Shown piece after piece: positions 6,054 through 64,000 of a stretch of 64,000 bases of DNA (the stretch's first letter is position 1; the number at the start of each line of letters is the position of its first letter). The notes below the pieces were generated by a model, which made no database searches, had not been told where the DNA came from, and saw nothing but the letters and a program-made list of their open reading frames with translations. Both the position numbers and the translations under genes were made by a program. The stretch comes from Lachnospiraceae bacterium (lineage in GTDB: Bacteria; Bacillota; Clostridia; Lachnospirales; Lachnospiraceae), in NCBI GenBank assembly GCA_017473115.1, contig JAFUNC010000004.1, positions 203,516 through 267,515 of the forward strand, written 5' to 3'.

Positions 6054-6168
6054 ATTCTGAACTATGCTTCGTTGTTTCTTTGTCCGTTTTATTCTGTCTG
6101 CGTTTTATTTCTCATACCTGCGTATTTTTATCATAAAAATAGTAACAAGAACCTTCCGAGGATTTTAT

Positions 6169-7506
6169 ATGCTTCTTTGTAAATTTTTCCAAAAACTCGG
6201 TCCTATCGTAACCGGCACTGCCATTTTAACCCTTGCATCCCTCACCACACGTCTTATCGGCTTTTTTTACAGAATGTTTCTGTCATCCAATTTCGGTGAA
6301 GAAGGCATGGGCATTTATCAATTAACATCTCCTGTCCTTGCTCTCACTTACGCATTCTGTATTTCCGGTTTTCAAACCGCAATTTCAAAATATGTCGCTG
6401 CCAAGGAAGGTCTGGGGCAACACCGTTCTGCAGCATATACTTTATTTCTGGGACTCTTCTTTTCATTGCTGCTAAGTATCCCTTGCACGTTTTGGGTATA
6501 TATCAATGCAGATTATATCGGCGCAGTTCTTTTATCGGAAATACGAACCGCGCCTTTGATTCGACTGATTGCTTTATCCATTCCGCTCAGTTGCATTCAC
6601 TCCTGTCTAAACGGTTACTTTCTGGGCCGTAAACAAGCCTCCGTCTCCGCTTCTACACAATTATTTGAACAGATTGCAAGAGTCACAAGCGTTTTTGTAA
6701 TTTGTAATATAATGACCGCAAACGGTCAGACCCCTCCTCTATGCATTGCCGCCACCGGCCTGCTTATTGGTGAAGGTGCATCTACCCTGCTATCGGTCAT
6801 TCTGTTTACAATTTCAGCACGCAATACCGGTTCAAACTCCCGCATTCCCTTCCGGAAAGAAGTATCCCAACTGACTGTAAGCATTATAAAAATGGCGGCA
6901 ATCATAAATATTAACCGCATTATCGTTAATTTCTTTGCAAGCACAGAAACCATTATGCTTCCGCAAAGTCTTGAAAAATACGGACTTTCAACTTCTGATT
7001 CACTTTCTTTATATGGGGTTTTATGCGGAATGGTTCTTCCTCTATTACTATTTCCCAATGCCCTAACCGGTTCTGTTTCCGTCATGTTACTTCCTGCCAT
7101 CTCCGAGGCGGACGAAAAAAAGCAGACCGAGCGAATACGAAGTATCGCAAATAAAACCTTTTTCTTCTGTTTCGGCCTGGGTGTAATATGTATGTTATTC
7201 TTTTTACTCGCCGGTAATTTTCTCGGACAAATGATGTTTCACAGTGAAATTGCCGGAGAATATATTGTTAAATTAAGTTTTATCTGTCCTTTATTATACT
7301 TATCTTCCGCCCTAAACAGTATACTAAACGGTAAAGGAAAAACCTTACAGTGTCTGGTTACCCAAGTACTCGGATTAGCAATCCGTATTGTTTTTCTTCT
7401 GTTCCTCATTCCGATTTACGGAATCAGCGCCTATATCGCGGGACTGATTGTAAGTCAGTTTATAAGTACGGTTCTCTGCCTGTTCTTTTTAAAAAAATAT
7501 ATTTAG
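6169..7506 (+). CDS. SpoVB-like polysaccharide/lipid flippase (MATE/MVF superfamily)
   Basis: A 445-residue polytopic membrane protein with about 12-14 hydrophobic segments. The N-terminal motif TRLIGFFYRMFLSSNFGEEGMGIYQL is typical of the SpoVB/oligosaccharide flippase group. Members move lipid-linked precursors across the membrane, and SpoVB itself is needed for the spore cortex. I start at the ATG at 6169, preceded by CGAGGA; an ATG 105 bases upstream lacks an RBS. Lachnospiraceae often carry several such proteins, so the exact substrate and a sporulation role are inference. Confidence 0.85.
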   Translation: MLLCKFFQKLGPIVTGTAILTLASLTTRLIGFFYRMFLSSNFGEEGMGIYQLTSPVLALTYAFCISGFQTAISKYVAAKEGLGQHRSAAYTLFLGLFFSLLLSIPCTFWVYINADYIGAVLLSEIRTAPLIRLIALSIPLSCIHSCLNGYFLGRKQASVSASTQLFEQIARVTSVFVICNIMTANGQTPPLCIAATGLLIGEGASTLLSVILFTISARNTGSNSRIPFRKEVSQLTVSIIKMAAIININRIIVNFFASTETIMLPQSLEKYGLSTSDSLSLYGVLCGMVLPLLLFPNALTGSVSVMLLPAISEADEKKQTERIRSIANKTFFFCFGLGVICMLFFLLAGNFLGQMMFHSEIAGEYIVKLSFICPLLYLSSALNSILNGKGKTLQCLVTQVLGLAIRIVFLLFLIPIYGISAYIAGLIVSQFISTVLCLFFLKKYI

Positions 7507-8719: not shown

Positions 8720-9334
8720 TTACATAAAAATTTTTAAAAATATTTTTAGAAAAAATGGATTTACATAACACTCCAGCAACATTCCTATTATGACAACTGC
8801 AAAAGGAGCCACCTTTTGAATATACTTCCCTTCTTTTAGTTCAAAAGTTTTGCTCGTTTTTTGACCCGATTGGTTAATCTTTAATCGCATTCCTTTATAC
8901 CGGAGCAAAAAAAGAAGCAAACGATAATATGCATAGCCATAAAAAAGATAATGCGGAAAAATACTTACAATAAATAAGATGCTTCCCAGTATCCCCTTCG
9001 CGATTATAAATTCCGTTATAAAAAAGCCGGCAAAGCCTCCGGCCAATACCACGCCACCCGCAAGAAAATACTTTCCCTTCCCGGATATACAAAGTATCGC
9101 AATAAAAAAGACCAGAGACAGGCGTTTTTTCAGTACATAAAATAGCATATCACCATATTGGATTTCAGAATATTTTAGATACAATAAAATATTGTCTAGC
9201 CATAAAAGTTTTCCTTCACTTTCCGGGTCTTTTATTGCAAATGCAAGAACCATTCCGATTACAAATCCAAGCACTAACAATACATAAATAATATTATTGG
9301 GCTGTAATTGGCGTTCCAAATGCCTGATTTTCAA
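8720..9334 (-). CDS. spoIIM: Stage II sporulation protein M-like membrane protein
   Basis: A 204-residue protein with about five membrane segments (near 15-35, 70-85, 90-110, 115-140 and 175-200) and a C-terminal IIGMLLECYVNPF that resembles the end of SpoIIM/DUF95 proteins. SpoIIM works with SpoIID and SpoIIP in septal peptidoglycan dissolution and engulfment. The position between the Nudix gene and xerD is the classical spoIIM location. The start appears to be TTG at 9332-9334; its GAGG ribosome binding site lies in the 3' arm of a hairpin (9336-9374). Identification rests on context and topology more than on a catalytic motif. Confidence 0.7.
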   Translation of the reverse strand: MKIRHLERQLQPNNIIYVLLVLGFVIGMVLAFAIKDPESEGKLLWLDNILLYLKYSEIQYGDMLFYVLKKRLSLVFFIAILCISGKGKYFLAGGVVLAGGFAGFFITEFIIAKGILGSILFIVSIFPHYLFYGYAYYRLLLFLLRYKGMRLKINQSGQKTSKTFELKEGKYIQKVAPFAVVIIGMLLECYVNPFFLKIFLKIFM

Positions 9335-59525: not shown

Positions 59526-62462
59526 TTAAACCATTTTTCTCAGATATTTCAGGTATTTCAAATCAACCTTAGACCATGTAAATCCCAAATCATTTAACAT
59601 ACGAATTGTAAAATCGTTTCGCATGGTAATATTCTTAGAGATGGACGCAATGGAACTGTAAAAGGATAAAATTGCCACTTCTTTGTCCTGAATTTTTTCT
59701 TTTACCTGTTTATCAAATACCTTCTGCGGTACTCTTTTACAATGAATCAAAAGTCGCTTGGTAAGATTCTCCACACTGTACATATTCGGATTGTACAAAT
59801 GATAGATATTGTTTACGCGGCTGTGCAGGGCAAGTAACACAAAGGCAATCGCACACTCATCCACCGCTGTAAAATCAATGGGATAAGCATTCAATTCGTC
59901 ACTATATACTCTTACCTTCAAAAGACCCTTACATCTTCCGATAAAACCGTTATCCTGAGCATTTTTCTGGAACTTACCGTCAAACATTCGCCAGGTAAGA
60001 TTACCGATACGATAAATATTCGCTTTCAAACCTTCTTTTCTGGCCATTAATACACGTTCTTCCGCCTTATATTTGGAACGGATATATACGTTCTGCACAT
60101 AATTCTGTCCGATATCCAAACAGTTCTCATCAAAAATTGCATCCGGATTGGTCTGACTTACGGTACCTGCACCGCAAACACTTGCCGTAGACGTATGGTG
60201 AAGCACAGCATTAGCGTCCTTACAGAAATCGATAACATTCTGGGTACCGATTACATTGGTACGCTCAAAATCCGAATAATGACCGGCATGCTGCACATTG
60301 GCTGCCGTATGAATTACCATATCTACGCGACGAACCAGTTTCTCATACTTTTCACGATTTAAACCGAAATGTTCTTTTTCAATATCCCCTACAGCAACTT
60401 TATAGGACATGAATTCGAACTCTTTCGGGAAATATTCCTTCATGGTTGCATGTAATCTCTCTTCATTACGTACCAGACAAACCACGTTCATCTTTTTCTT
60501 TAAAAGTTGCCATAAAATATGTGCTCCAAGGAAACCGGTCGCACCTGTAAGAAGAATATACTTAGGATGTGTTTCATATTCCAAATTGGAATTATGAATA
60601 ATTAAACTGTTTACATCCACATTACCTTCTTTATCGTTTTCATGGTCATTTAATAACAGGGTTCGCTCCAATTTCTCTGCCGTGGCATATTCATAAATAT
60701 CCTGTGCCTGAATTCCGAGAATGGCAGCCACTTCAAACGCCGAAAGACTGTCGCCGCCCATTTCAAAGAAGTCATCATAGATTCCAACTTTTTCTCTGCT
60801 CAAAACCTGCGCAAAAGCATCTGTTATACGCTTCTGCTCTTCAGTTTTCGGTGCAACATATTCCACTTTCTTTTTATTTAACTGTTCTTCCAAACGCTCC
60901 ATAGTCTCTTTACGTTTGGTTTTCAAAGTAGTAGTCTTAGGCAATTCCCATGAAACAAAATGCGTTGCCGTAATCTTCTGATATGTGGGAAGATTTTCAT
61001 TCACCACTCCAATTTCAGCCTTAATGGATTTACGCAATTCTCTGTCACTATACAAAGTAGGTACAACAACTGCGGCAATACGGTTCCCTTCCGCATACAC
61101 CATGACATCTTTTACACCGGAAATGGGTTTGATTTTAGCCTCAAGTTCTTCCGGATAAACATTTTTGCCATTATCTAAAATAATCAAATTCTTAGAACGT
61201 CCTGTAATCTGTAAAAATCCGTCTTCGTCAAAATGGCCCAAGTCGCCGGTATGGAACCAACCGTCTGCATCAATTGCTTCCCTGGTTGCTTCTTCATTTT
61301 TGTAATATCCAAGCATAATGCCGGGGCCTTTTACAAGAATTTCGCCATCCACAATTTTGGACTCTAAATAACTTACAACCTTACCTACCGTACCTGTGCG
61401 TTTCGTAGTAGGATTCTCCGCTGCCACCAAAGGCGCACATTCCGTAAGACCATAGCCCTGATACATATTAATTCCGAATTGGTCAAAATATTCCACAACC
61501 TCCGGACGAAGCGCAGCTCCGCCTACAATAATGTTGGTAATATTTCCGCCAAGACGGTCAATAATCTTTTTATATAGTTTTCTTCTTGCATCAATACGCA
61601 ATGCACGAAGCACTTTGGATACCCTCCTTGCAAACTTAAGCAAACGTTTTTCTTTTCCCTTGGAAGTTGCCTCTTTTAACTTCTTATAAAAGACTTCCGC
61701 AATAGCGGGCACCACAAGGATAACCGCAGGCTTAAAAAGTTGCATATTGCTTACGATGTTTTCCATTTTATCGTTGATGCAAATGGTTGCACCGCAATTA
61801 AGCGTACCGAGATTATCTACGGTAAGCTCAAAAGTATGGTGGATGGGCAACACCGACATAACCACAGGATTTCCCTTCACATTGCTTGCATAATCCAGAC
61901 GATAAATTTCATTGATATTGGCCATAATGTTTTCCTGGGAAAGCATTACACCCTTGCTCACTCCTGTTGTTCCTGATGTAAAAAGCAACTCTGCCATTTC
62001 CTTAGGATTAATCGCAGGAAGCGCCTCGGATTCCGTTTTCATTGCATCCGTAAAACGTACATCCGTAAAACAAAGAAGATCTCTGTTCCCTGCATAATCG
62101 TGGAAATATGAAGCAAATTCATCCGAATAAAAGACAAAATCCACATCACCCATATCAAGAAGATTATAAATGTCAGATTTCGGCAACATTTTATCCAAAG
62201 GAATCACCACATTGTTACTACATGCAATCGCAAGAAAACTTACAATCCATTCATAACTGGTTCCGCCCAAAATCGCAATATGCTTTCTTTGATATCCTGA
62301 TTTATTCAACCAGGTAGCAAGCGAAAAAATATTATCGCGAAACTCCGGATAAGTTTTGGATACTACCTTGCCGTCAACCAAATAACGATAGGCATCCCTG
62401 TCTGCATATCGCTCTGCTATGCTGTTTACATATTCCTGCAAATCCACAAGTGTACTACTCAT
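59526..62462 (-). CDS. Adenylation-carrier-reductase protein (carboxylate-reductase/NRPS-like)
   Basis: A 978-residue three-domain enzyme. The adenylation domain (about 1-530) has LLFTSGTTGVSKG, GYGLTECAP and GWFHTGDLG. The carrier domain (about 555-625) has the phosphopantetheine serine in FFEMGGDSLSA. The thioester reductase domain (about 645-978) has the NAD(P) loop TGATGFLGAHIL and the YIRSK (YxxxK) catalytic pair. This architecture activates a carboxylic acid and reduces the bound thioester to an aldehyde or alcohol. The adenylation domain resembles acyl-CoA synthetases more than amino-acid NRPS domains. Start ATG at 62460-62462 after GGGAG. Confidence 0.9.
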   Translation of the reverse strand: MSSTLVDLQEYVNSIAERYADRDAYRYLVDGKVVSKTYPEFRDNIFSLATWLNKSGYQRKHIAILGGTSYEWIVSFLAIACSNNVVIPLDKMLPKSDIYNLLDMGDVDFVFYSDEFASYFHDYAGNRDLLCFTDVRFTDAMKTESEALPAINPKEMAELLFTSGTTGVSKGVMLSQENIMANINEIYRLDYASNVKGNPVVMSVLPIHHTFELTVDNLGTLNCGATICINDKMENIVSNMQLFKPAVILVVPAIAEVFYKKLKEATSKGKEKRLLKFARRVSKVLRALRIDARRKLYKKIIDRLGGNITNIIVGGAALRPEVVEYFDQFGINMYQGYGLTECAPLVAAENPTTKRTGTVGKVVSYLESKIVDGEILVKGPGIMLGYYKNEEATREAIDADGWFHTGDLGHFDEDGFLQITGRSKNLIILDNGKNVYPEELEAKIKPISGVKDVMVYAEGNRIAAVVVPTLYSDRELRKSIKAEIGVVNENLPTYQKITATHFVSWELPKTTTLKTKRKETMERLEEQLNKKKVEYVAPKTEEQKRITDAFAQVLSREKVGIYDDFFEMGGDSLSAFEVAAILGIQAQDIYEYATAEKLERTLLLNDHENDKEGNVDVNSLIIHNSNLEYETHPKYILLTGATGFLGAHILWQLLKKKMNVVCLVRNEERLHATMKEYFPKEFEFMSYKVAVGDIEKEHFGLNREKYEKLVRRVDMVIHTAANVQHAGHYSDFERTNVIGTQNVIDFCKDANAVLHHTSTASVCGAGTVSQTNPDAIFDENCLDIGQNYVQNVYIRSKYKAEERVLMARKEGLKANIYRIGNLTWRMFDGKFQKNAQDNGFIGRCKGLLKVRVYSDELNAYPIDFTAVDECAIAFVLLALHSRVNNIYHLYNPNMYSVENLTKRLLIHCKRVPQKVFDKQVKEKIQDKEVAILSFYSSIASISKNITMRNDFTIRMLNDLGFTWSKVDLKYLKYLRKMV

Positions 62463-62507
62463 CTCAATCTCCCATTCAAACAATGCCCAAAGACACCACT
62501 ATGAAAC

Positions 62508-63737: not shown

Positions 63738-63863
63738 TTATTCATGCCAATGTTCCAACATCTCTTCAATAAAAATCCCATACCCCTTCTCAGGGTCATT
63801 CACCAGCACATGTGTCACTGCACCAATAATCTTCCCGTCTTGGATGATAGGCGAGCCCGACAG
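63738..63863 (-). pseudogene. spoIVB: 3' fragment of spoIVB (SpoIVB peptidase), cut at the active-site serine
   Basis: The last 41 codons of an S55-family SpoIVB peptidase: [19 protein letters not shown] followed by [22 protein letters not shown] and a TAA stop. The SGSP motif holds the nucleophilic Ser of B. subtilis SpoIVB. Upstream the frame reaches a TGA directly before the Leu codon and the sequence no longer resembles SpoIVB, so the gene is interrupted just before the catalytic Ser. SpoIVB normally activates pro-sigma-K processing late in sporulation. The missing 5' part is not in this window. Confidence 0.85.
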
Positions 63864-63872
63864 TCACGTGTC
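63855..63872. other. Putative recombination junction (att site) inside spoIVB
   Basis: The boundary between SpoIVB-like sequence and foreign sequence falls at about 63858-63866. The bases on the minus strand are CTGTCGGGC; the expected intact gene would read ATG TCG GGC (Met-Ser-Gly), so TGTCGGG could be the shared crossover core. A near-palindrome, GACACGTGAC (63863-63872), abuts it. Only one side can be seen. Confidence 0.4.
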
Positions 63873-63926
63873 AAGTAGGGAGCAACACTTTTTTCAAAAA
63901 ATTTTAATTTTTTTCATTTCAAGGAG

Positions 63927-64000
63927 TTAGGCAGTAATTGTATCAGCAAAATTCCAGATGATTTGTACTGCATTACCGGGATATACTCGTATTTCCTTAA
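63927..64000 (-). CDS. C-terminal end of a probable serine recombinase (runs off right edge)
   Basis: The last 23 codons (KEIRVYPGNAVQIIWNFADT, then ITA and TAA) resemble the C-terminal strand pair of large serine recombinases, which commonly end in a VYPxNxxxIxW(K/N)FxD-type sequence. The gene is on the same strand as spoIVB and ends about 60 bases before the spoIVB junction, the usual position of the recombinase gene in skin-like and phage-like elements. The sequence between (63867-63926) is very AT-rich. Only 23 residues are visible, so the family call is tentative. Confidence 0.5.
   Translation of the reverse strand, partial: KEIRVYPGNAVQIIWNFADTITA

Follow-up and report, generated by a model that had tools for sequence, protein, structure and literature searches.

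The window analysed here is a stretch of 64,000 nucleotides from a Lachnospiraceae genome (G000:C2:203516-267515). The source genome, G000, comprises 2.23 Mb in 23 contigs and is 85.4% complete, and base 64000 of the window is also the last base of contig C2. Close to this end the minus strand codes for the C-terminus of SpoIVB, in frame from the codon for the catalytic serine (TCG, 63860-63858) to the stop at 63738 (Table 1). A first-pass annotation of this DNA had described this fragment together with a loss of similarity at the catalytic serine. Both observations are correct: the match to the peptidase profile (Peptidase_S55, PF05580; 68 bits) covers profile positions 175-210, and the resemblance to SpoIVB stops exactly at the serine codon. 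The long gene downstream indicates that the spoIVB fragment sits in its native place.

Table 1. Features at the right end of the window and islands beside spoIVB in other genomes
Feature	Position	Strand	Remarks
spoIVB 3' fragment, host side of attR (B')	63738..63860	-	PF05580 positions 175-210; in frame with the half on C15
Crossover core TG, 2 bp, common to attL (C15) and attR	63861..63862	-	Comparison over several hosts
P' half-site (TGTTGCTCCCTACTTGACACGTGACTG), imperfect mirror of the P half on C15	63861..63887	-	18 of 26 positions symmetrical
TTGACA, -35 box completed only on joining of the element ends	63869..63874	-	TATAAT in the left end on C15; 17-bp spacer
Right end of the element, 138 bases besides the core, up to the contig end at 64000	63863..64000	-	100% match to G172
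3' end of the gene for the third (outermost) large serine recombinase: 23 codons and stop	63927..63998	-	Same residues as the 530-aa ORF in L086
Long gene, AMP-binding type by reading of the sequence, downstream neighbour of spoIVB	59526..62483	-	95% identical gene beyond the displaced spoIVB 3' end in G006
Island with defence-like genes, G006	L016 5200-10100
Island with defence-like genes, G014	L017 4620-8000
Island with defence-like genes, G310	L083 5700-17009	-

The two halves of spoIVB and the crossover site

A profile search of the whole genome returned only two matches to Peptidase_S55, the one at the end of C2 and another, to profile positions 2-177, near the end of contig C15. The latter marks the 5' part of spoIVB, which the first-pass annotation had predicted to exist next to a matching core. 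This half stops one codon short of the catalytic serine: it reads ...ELTGGIVQGM, then FTSYNGSNNRKASKIKGFLMF, and then a stop. Its S55 stretch shares 64-75% identity with three relatives from the genus, and the preceding gene is presumably recN, judged by its open reading frame. When the halves from C15 and C2 are joined at the codon boundary, they form one uninterrupted SpoIVB frame (...VQGM followed by SGSP...). Precise excision would thus restore Met-Ser-Gly-Ser-Pro, as had been proposed. No intact spoIVB was found by a profile search of all contigs of this 85%-complete genome. Two halves with complementary profile ranges and a common frame support the idea that an element with a recombinase is inserted into spoIVB at the codon for the catalytic serine.

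The crossover core is shorter than first assumed. The sequence TGTCGGG had been suggested, but attL and attR have only TG in common, because the following bases in attR are the host's own serine codon. This codon differs by host (TCG, AGT, AGC or TCC): it is TCG in G000 and G172, and AGT in G429, L098 and L099. On C15, 138 foreign bases follow the ATG; on C2, 140 bases run up to and including the TG before the serine codon. Half-sites similar to P' precede spoIVB 3' ends elsewhere. Large serine recombinases act on sites of this type, in which mirrored half-sites flank a core of 2 bp. Identical sequences of 2 bp are stated for Tn4451 in the portion of PMC5704250 consulted. DNA searches with both element ends (138 and 140 bases) found no other copy of them in G000, and searches with the DNA of either end did not recover the interior of the element from this assembly.

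Each of the two contigs breaks off some 140 nt into the element (140 and 141 from the core). A k = 141 assembly graph should behave in this way if the element occurs in more than one context, and this invites the suspicion that contigs were wrongly joined or binned and that spoIVB is whole in the organism. However, the junctions on C15 and C2 are independent of each other and share one core. The same junctions are also found in further genomes and collections, and in one of these genomes, G429, they lie 15.5 and 73 kb inside contigs. We therefore regard such an artefact as very improbable. The contig ends were also considered as proof of a circular form of the element; this reading was dropped, because two hosts that carry one and the same element within a single sample would produce the same picture.

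Relatives of the element and promoters at its ends

The frame upstream of the half-site in the window (...KEIRVYPGNAVQIIWNFADTITA, with its stop ending at 63927) is identical at every residue to the C-terminal end of the third recombinase in L086. This 530-aa counterpart contains the Resolvase and Recombinase Pfam domains, so that the initial reading of the frame as a recombinase holds. In G000 only the last 23 codons of recombinase 3 are present, and the complete trio is known from relatives. A right-end query of 141 bases, core included, is 100% identical to G172:C124:4925-5065. In this genome, which belongs to another genus, the left 138 and the right 140 bases of the element are identical to those in G000 and spoIVB is split too. 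Contig C124 of G172 consists of 5 kb of right end with three tandem ORFs of 546, 573 and 530 aa; all three have Resolvase and Recombinase domains, and the last one ends 64 nt before the core. The left end was also found in G154, again from a genus other than that of G000, with one different base over 129 bases compared, and in G429, with one different base over 138 bases compared. Two Recombinase-domain genes of G000 itself (open frames of 573 and 566 aa on its contigs C8 and C10) lie on other contigs than the junctions.

The most informative relative is that of G429 (RGIG2016, goat colon), in which spoIVB is split at the same place by an element with the same trio and a recombinase 3 of 94% identity. 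On the left, contig C10 of this genome contains 15,540 bases counted from the junction; on the right, contig C6 contributes the 73 kb that lead up to the other junction. The element encodes a relaxase (PF03432), a coupling protein (PF02534), a TraG-type P-loop ATPase (PF19044), an NlpC/P60 protein, an actin-like protein, a Toprim-domain protein and further genes, which are followed by the recombinase trio. If C10 and C6 are joined on the strength of the two junctions, with a gap between them, the element measures at least 88.6 kb. Judged by its gene content, the G429 relative is an ICE; its conjugation module may resemble that of the Tn1549 ICE family. The identity of the ends suggests an ICE interior for the element of G000 as well, with the gene content taken from G429. 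The comparison with skin-like prophages made in the first-pass annotation does not hold, given three recombinases in the relatives and an ICE as the best of these.

Searches of the viral_contigs collection returned 0 matches to the exact 46-base attP pattern of the circular joint and 0 matches to the attL pattern. Two further observations concern related loci. In L163 (2612-2848), a gene with a DUF6870 domain (PF21757) lies just upstream of the recombinase trio and is a candidate directionality factor. In L187 (5541-5640), two facing motifs that resemble half-sites (GGGACAACA ... TGTTGTCCC) directly follow recombinase 3, without spoIVB; they perhaps represent another target or a joint.

Joining of the element ends yields a perfect TTGACA-N17-TATAAT sequence that reads into the element, whereas in the integrated state the -35 box lies in attR and the -10 box in attL. 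All promoters discussed here are matches to a consensus. Of 13 right ends that bear a recombinase (including L097, which is the locus of G172), 12 have the TTGACA box 6 nt ahead of the core, and L182 lacks it. The left end of a related element in G072 likewise has TATAAT 9 nt after the core. For comparison, a perfect promoter occurred in 51 of 200,000 random 278-mers of like composition. The 64-kb window contains three, and no other was found on either strand of the 88.6 kb of the G429 element. All listed ORFs on contig C10 of G429, except one of 81 aa, point along the direction of the joint promoter, which by its position would drive the transfer side. In Tn4451/Tn4453, Lyras and Rood are said to have described in 2000 a promoter that forms in the circular intermediate and drives tnpX. 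In contrast to this arrangement, the joint promoter here would face away from the recombinases and drive the left-end genes.

The recombinase trio has a predicted promoter of its own. A sigma-A type sequence (TTGAC-N17-ATAAT) precedes it in 10 of 11 loci, which correspond to six of seven distinct elements. The search pattern allowed spacers of 16-18 (TTGAC-N16-18-ATAAT-like), and the spacer was 17 in those found; applied to the plus strand over 73 kb of G429, this loose pattern gives two hits, one of which is the trio promoter. When the DNA before the trio was inspected by eye for sporulation-type promoters, a CATACAT string was seen upstream in copies of this element, without a fitting -35 box. 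This string resembles a sigma-E -10 box.

spoIVB as an insertion site in other genomes

Relatives of recombinase 3 were sought in named genomes (genome_contigs, 19 loci) and in viral_contigs (8 loci first, and the best 80 of 143 loci in an alignment survey). Right ends that abut spoIVB number 14 in all, with recombinase identities down to 49% (the window, L097-L100, L163 (= L181), L164-L166, L182, L183, L195, L196 and L090). In genome_contigs, 4 of 19 loci have a right end next to a spoIVB 3' fragment, three recognised by pattern and L098 by reading; the other 15 all show at most 45% identity, and some have little DNA beyond the gene. Among the best 80 of 143 loci in viral_contigs, a spoIVB junction is present in 8 of 20 at 45% identity or more, or in 7 of the 15 such loci with at least 150 nt beyond the gene. 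The 60 loci below 45% in the same set include 50 with at least 150 nt of room, and none of these has the junction. Eight of the 15 close relatives with room in this set show no spoIVB within 1.2 kb. One further junction occurs in L090 (G165), and a nearly identical element occupies three different spoIVB genes in L163-L165.

An attL signature (the spoIVB codons for VQGM, 9 nt and TATAAT) was found in 4 of 397 genomes of the family (G000, G072, G154 and G172) and nowhere in a reversed control. The same genomes have S55 matches that end at position 176-177, cut at the methionine; for this check, 23 of 256 matching genomes were picked for a weak best E-value or for more than one match. Long matches to the element ends are likewise present in 4 of 397 genomes (G000, G172, G154 and G250). 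The 278-base joint matched 52 of the 397, but 48 of these matches were short pieces, mostly in an A-rich stretch, and were not counted.

The junctions indicate that in Lachnospiraceae triple-serine-recombinase ICEs have targeted spoIVB repeatedly. The notion that this target belongs to one recombinase clade held with 9 versus 14 rows in the comparison. It was withdrawn at 19 rows, with 4 changes on the tree, because closer relatives that do not target spoIVB lie among those that do. In L098 (G250/G427) and L099 (G428), the spoIVB 3' end at the right junction does not agree with the whole spoIVB assigned to that genome by binning, which points to mis-binned contigs or to a second copy.

The crossover site also borders islands of a different kind. 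In G006, G014 and G310, spoIVB is whole, and 3.1 to 10 kb downstream a P' half and TG precede a second spoIVB 3' end. In G006 it is this second copy that sits at the native location, ahead of the gene found next to spoIVB on its downstream side in the window. Eight of ten proteins encoded in between match PADLOC defence families at E values of 0.001 or better, most strongly HEC-02A, NsnC and NsnA in G310, SoFic in G006 and PDC-S01 in G014. The second 3' end agrees with the host's whole copy at 97 of 108 positions in G006 and at 104 of 108 in both G014 and G310; in G006 the first 88 bases from the core are identical between both copies. A P-like half after the restored gene is kept only in G006. 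More diverged second 3' ends, with 75-92 of 108 positions in common with the nearest whole copy compared, were found in G266, G346, G391 and G375; in G346 and G391 the whole gene and these fragments are on separate contigs.

There are three spoIVB 3'-end repeats in a row in G266 (L079, reverse strand, 118-2700) and three spoIVB 3' ends, two of them with a P' half, in G346 (L081 4698, 5940, 8022). Five of the six repeated 3' ends in G266 and G346 are preceded by a P'-like half-site. The farthest copy in G266 is the most decayed (75 of 108, versus 87 and 91), an order reminiscent of integrons or SCC arrays. By analogy, they appear to be islands in the style of SCC, each equipped with a spoIVB 3' end of its own. 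No recombinase gene was recognised by eye among the island ORFs. In L081 (5601-6059), the 5' part of a gene continues in frame into a spoIVB 3' end, with the joint between GAAATG and TCG, as if a pseudo-attB had been used.

Sporulation and the proposed life cycle

Among 31 genomes of the genus, an S55 match is present in five and absent from 26, and SpoIVA is also present in five and absent from 26. Four genomes have both. G000 is one of them and belongs to the sporulation-equipped minority of its genus. Its SpoIVA is full-length (TIGR02836, 625 bits), and contig C15 carries the spoIIIA genes AA, AB, AD, AE, AF, AG and AH, of which AB, AD, AE, AF and AG score below the NCBIfam equivalog cut-off, AH has no NCBIfam match and AG has no Pfam match. 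SpoIVA is present in all five genomes with a split spoIVB that were searched (G000, G072 with profile positions 53-237, G154, G172 and G429). Both halves of spoIVB in G000 show dN/dS values of 0.06-0.12 against three intact relatives, compared to 0.09-0.12 among those relatives; at dS values of about 1-3, near saturation, these ratios are blind to a recent insertion. The window itself also encodes SpoVB-like and SpoIIM-like proteins (6064-7503 and 8723-9334), both below the NCBIfam equivalog cut-offs, the latter near xerD.

Since the host keeps spoIVA and the spoIIIA genes, the insertion should block sporulation until excision. A sporulation-equipped genome around the insertion fits reversibility, and it equally fits a recent hit. 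The insertion could instead be fixed or defective, in an asporogenous strain that is losing sporulation like most of its genus. The 26 of 31 genomes without S55, or without SpoIVA, fit such a course, and the G000 assembly contains no empty site. However, G172 has identical element ends, and G154 and G429 have nearly identical ones, with G172 and G154 belonging to other genera, which argues for recent mobility; moreover, other sporulation genes remain in G000. We consider a fixed insertion unlikely.

A further explanation, favoured by the first-pass annotation, is that the element behaves like skin: excision triggered by sporulation would restore spoIVB and place completion of the spore under the control of a DNA rearrangement. 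The consulted parts of the literature offer precedents, such as gin in gerE, also with three serine recombinases (PMC5595907), and yin in yabG (PMC10747680). The retained spoIVA and spoIIIA genes, the exact restoration of the gene on excision and the lack of decay in both halves would suit this model too, although the dN/dS values that speak for the latter would miss a recent insertion. The timing is harder to reconcile. In Bacillus subtilis, according to PMC3789822, sigma-F and sigma-G direct the synthesis of SpoIVB in the forespore, and the protein has a second function, separate from sigma-K signalling, without which spores do not form. By comparison, sigK and gerE are described as mother-cell genes in the consulted parts of PMC5595907 and PMC10747680. 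Since spoIVB acts from the forespore, excision would have to rebuild the gene at the forespore stage at the latest and hence in the germline, where the element would be lost or forced to re-insert; if skin-like excision took place in the mother cell only, SpoIVB would not be restored. The vegetative-type promoter of the recombinase operon in 10 of 11 loci and this germline requirement make a skin-like programme improbable, and they leave the proposed timing of excision by sporulation unsupported. What stands of the first-pass annotation is its observation and a part of its interpretation, namely the split, the 5' part and a common core; the core sequence and the skin-like type do not, and the timed excision is not supported.

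Several known elements share features with the one described here. Streptococcal ICEs with a serine integrase triplet, which include ConjTn1549, ConjTn5252 and other modules according to the part of PMC4701971 consulted, combine three large serine integrases in the same orientation, disruption of a protein gene and a conjugation module. Counterparts of these traits are the three recombinases beside one junction in G172 and G429 and the relaxase, coupling protein and T4SS ATPase of G429. The very short direct repeats of such ICEs (2-8 bp in the same text) correspond to the TG core. The streptococcal targets named there are mutT, hsdM and traG, in contrast to the catalytic serine codon of spoIVB in Lachnospiraceae. 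The gin element of Bacillus cereus is another non-phage element with three serine recombinase genes that splits a sporulation gene, gerE, and permits its exact reconstitution, as the joined frame predicts for G000. As far as the consulted text of PMC5595907 goes, gin measures 28.6 kb, has girA and girB apart from girC, and excises during sporulation by means of GirC and GirX in a mother-cell target, whereas the present family has a contiguous trio, conjugation genes and a forespore gene as its target. Skin in sigK, SP-beta in spsM (PMC5025042, PMC4191935) and yin in yabG (PMC10747680) also bring recombinases into sporulation genes, but these elements are described as prophage-like with a single recombinase (PMC5595907). 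In these sources, excision during sporulation is reported for skin and SP-beta (PMC5025042, PMC4191935), and yin was found excised at all time points of cultures (PMC10747680). SCC arrays (in part described in PMC5595907) resemble the islands beside spoIVB in other genomes in their tandem arrangement parted by att repeats and in keeping the target gene whole; SCC elements use serine recombinases, whereas no recombinase gene was recognised in the islands. A search of the open-licence literature by title and start of abstract found no report of an element inserted in spoIVB, and no report of an ICE inserted in a sporulation gene of Lachnospiraceae was found in that literature. What is new is the target spoIVB and the hosts; triple-serine-recombinase ICEs as a kind are known.

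In our preferred explanation, the feature in the window is very probably the attR of a large ICE that is integrated site-specifically in spoIVB and that reversibly blocks sporulation as part of an ICE life cycle. The recombinases, expressed from their vegetative sigma-A type promoter, would insert the circle at the spoIVB codon and could also excise it. With the element inserted, SpoIVB lacks the catalytic serine and the C-terminus. Such a split protein must be inactive, as we infer from the S55 family, and the cell should not finish spores. Excision would rebuild spoIVB exactly, and the joined ends would form the consensus promoter into the left-end genes, so that transfer genes are switched on in the circle. 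The sporulation block would then be a by-product or a benefit of this life cycle. The authors of PMC4701971 suggest, in the part consulted, that gene-disrupting streptococcal ICEs may excise when the gene is useful; by analogy, this could hold here.

A more far-reaching scenario, which we regard as doubtful, is that spoIVB serves as a dedicated landing site through which conjugative elements control the decision of their hosts to form spores or to spread the element. This would involve reversible insertion, excision in the forespore or predivisional cell that both rebuilds spoIVB and completes the transfer promoter, a circle that rides in the spore, and re-insertion on germination. The site would then fill, in the manner of SCC or integrons, with islands of defence genes that bring their own spoIVB 3' end and keep the gene whole.

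For many gut Lachnospiraceae, spores are taken as the route of spread between hosts. An ICE in spoIVB would set its own conjugative spread against the spread of its host by spores, and lineages may lose sporulation by way of this family of elements. The rebuilt spoIVB and the promoter at the circle joint constitute testable predictions, and spoIVB would be a new target for triple-serine-recombinase elements.
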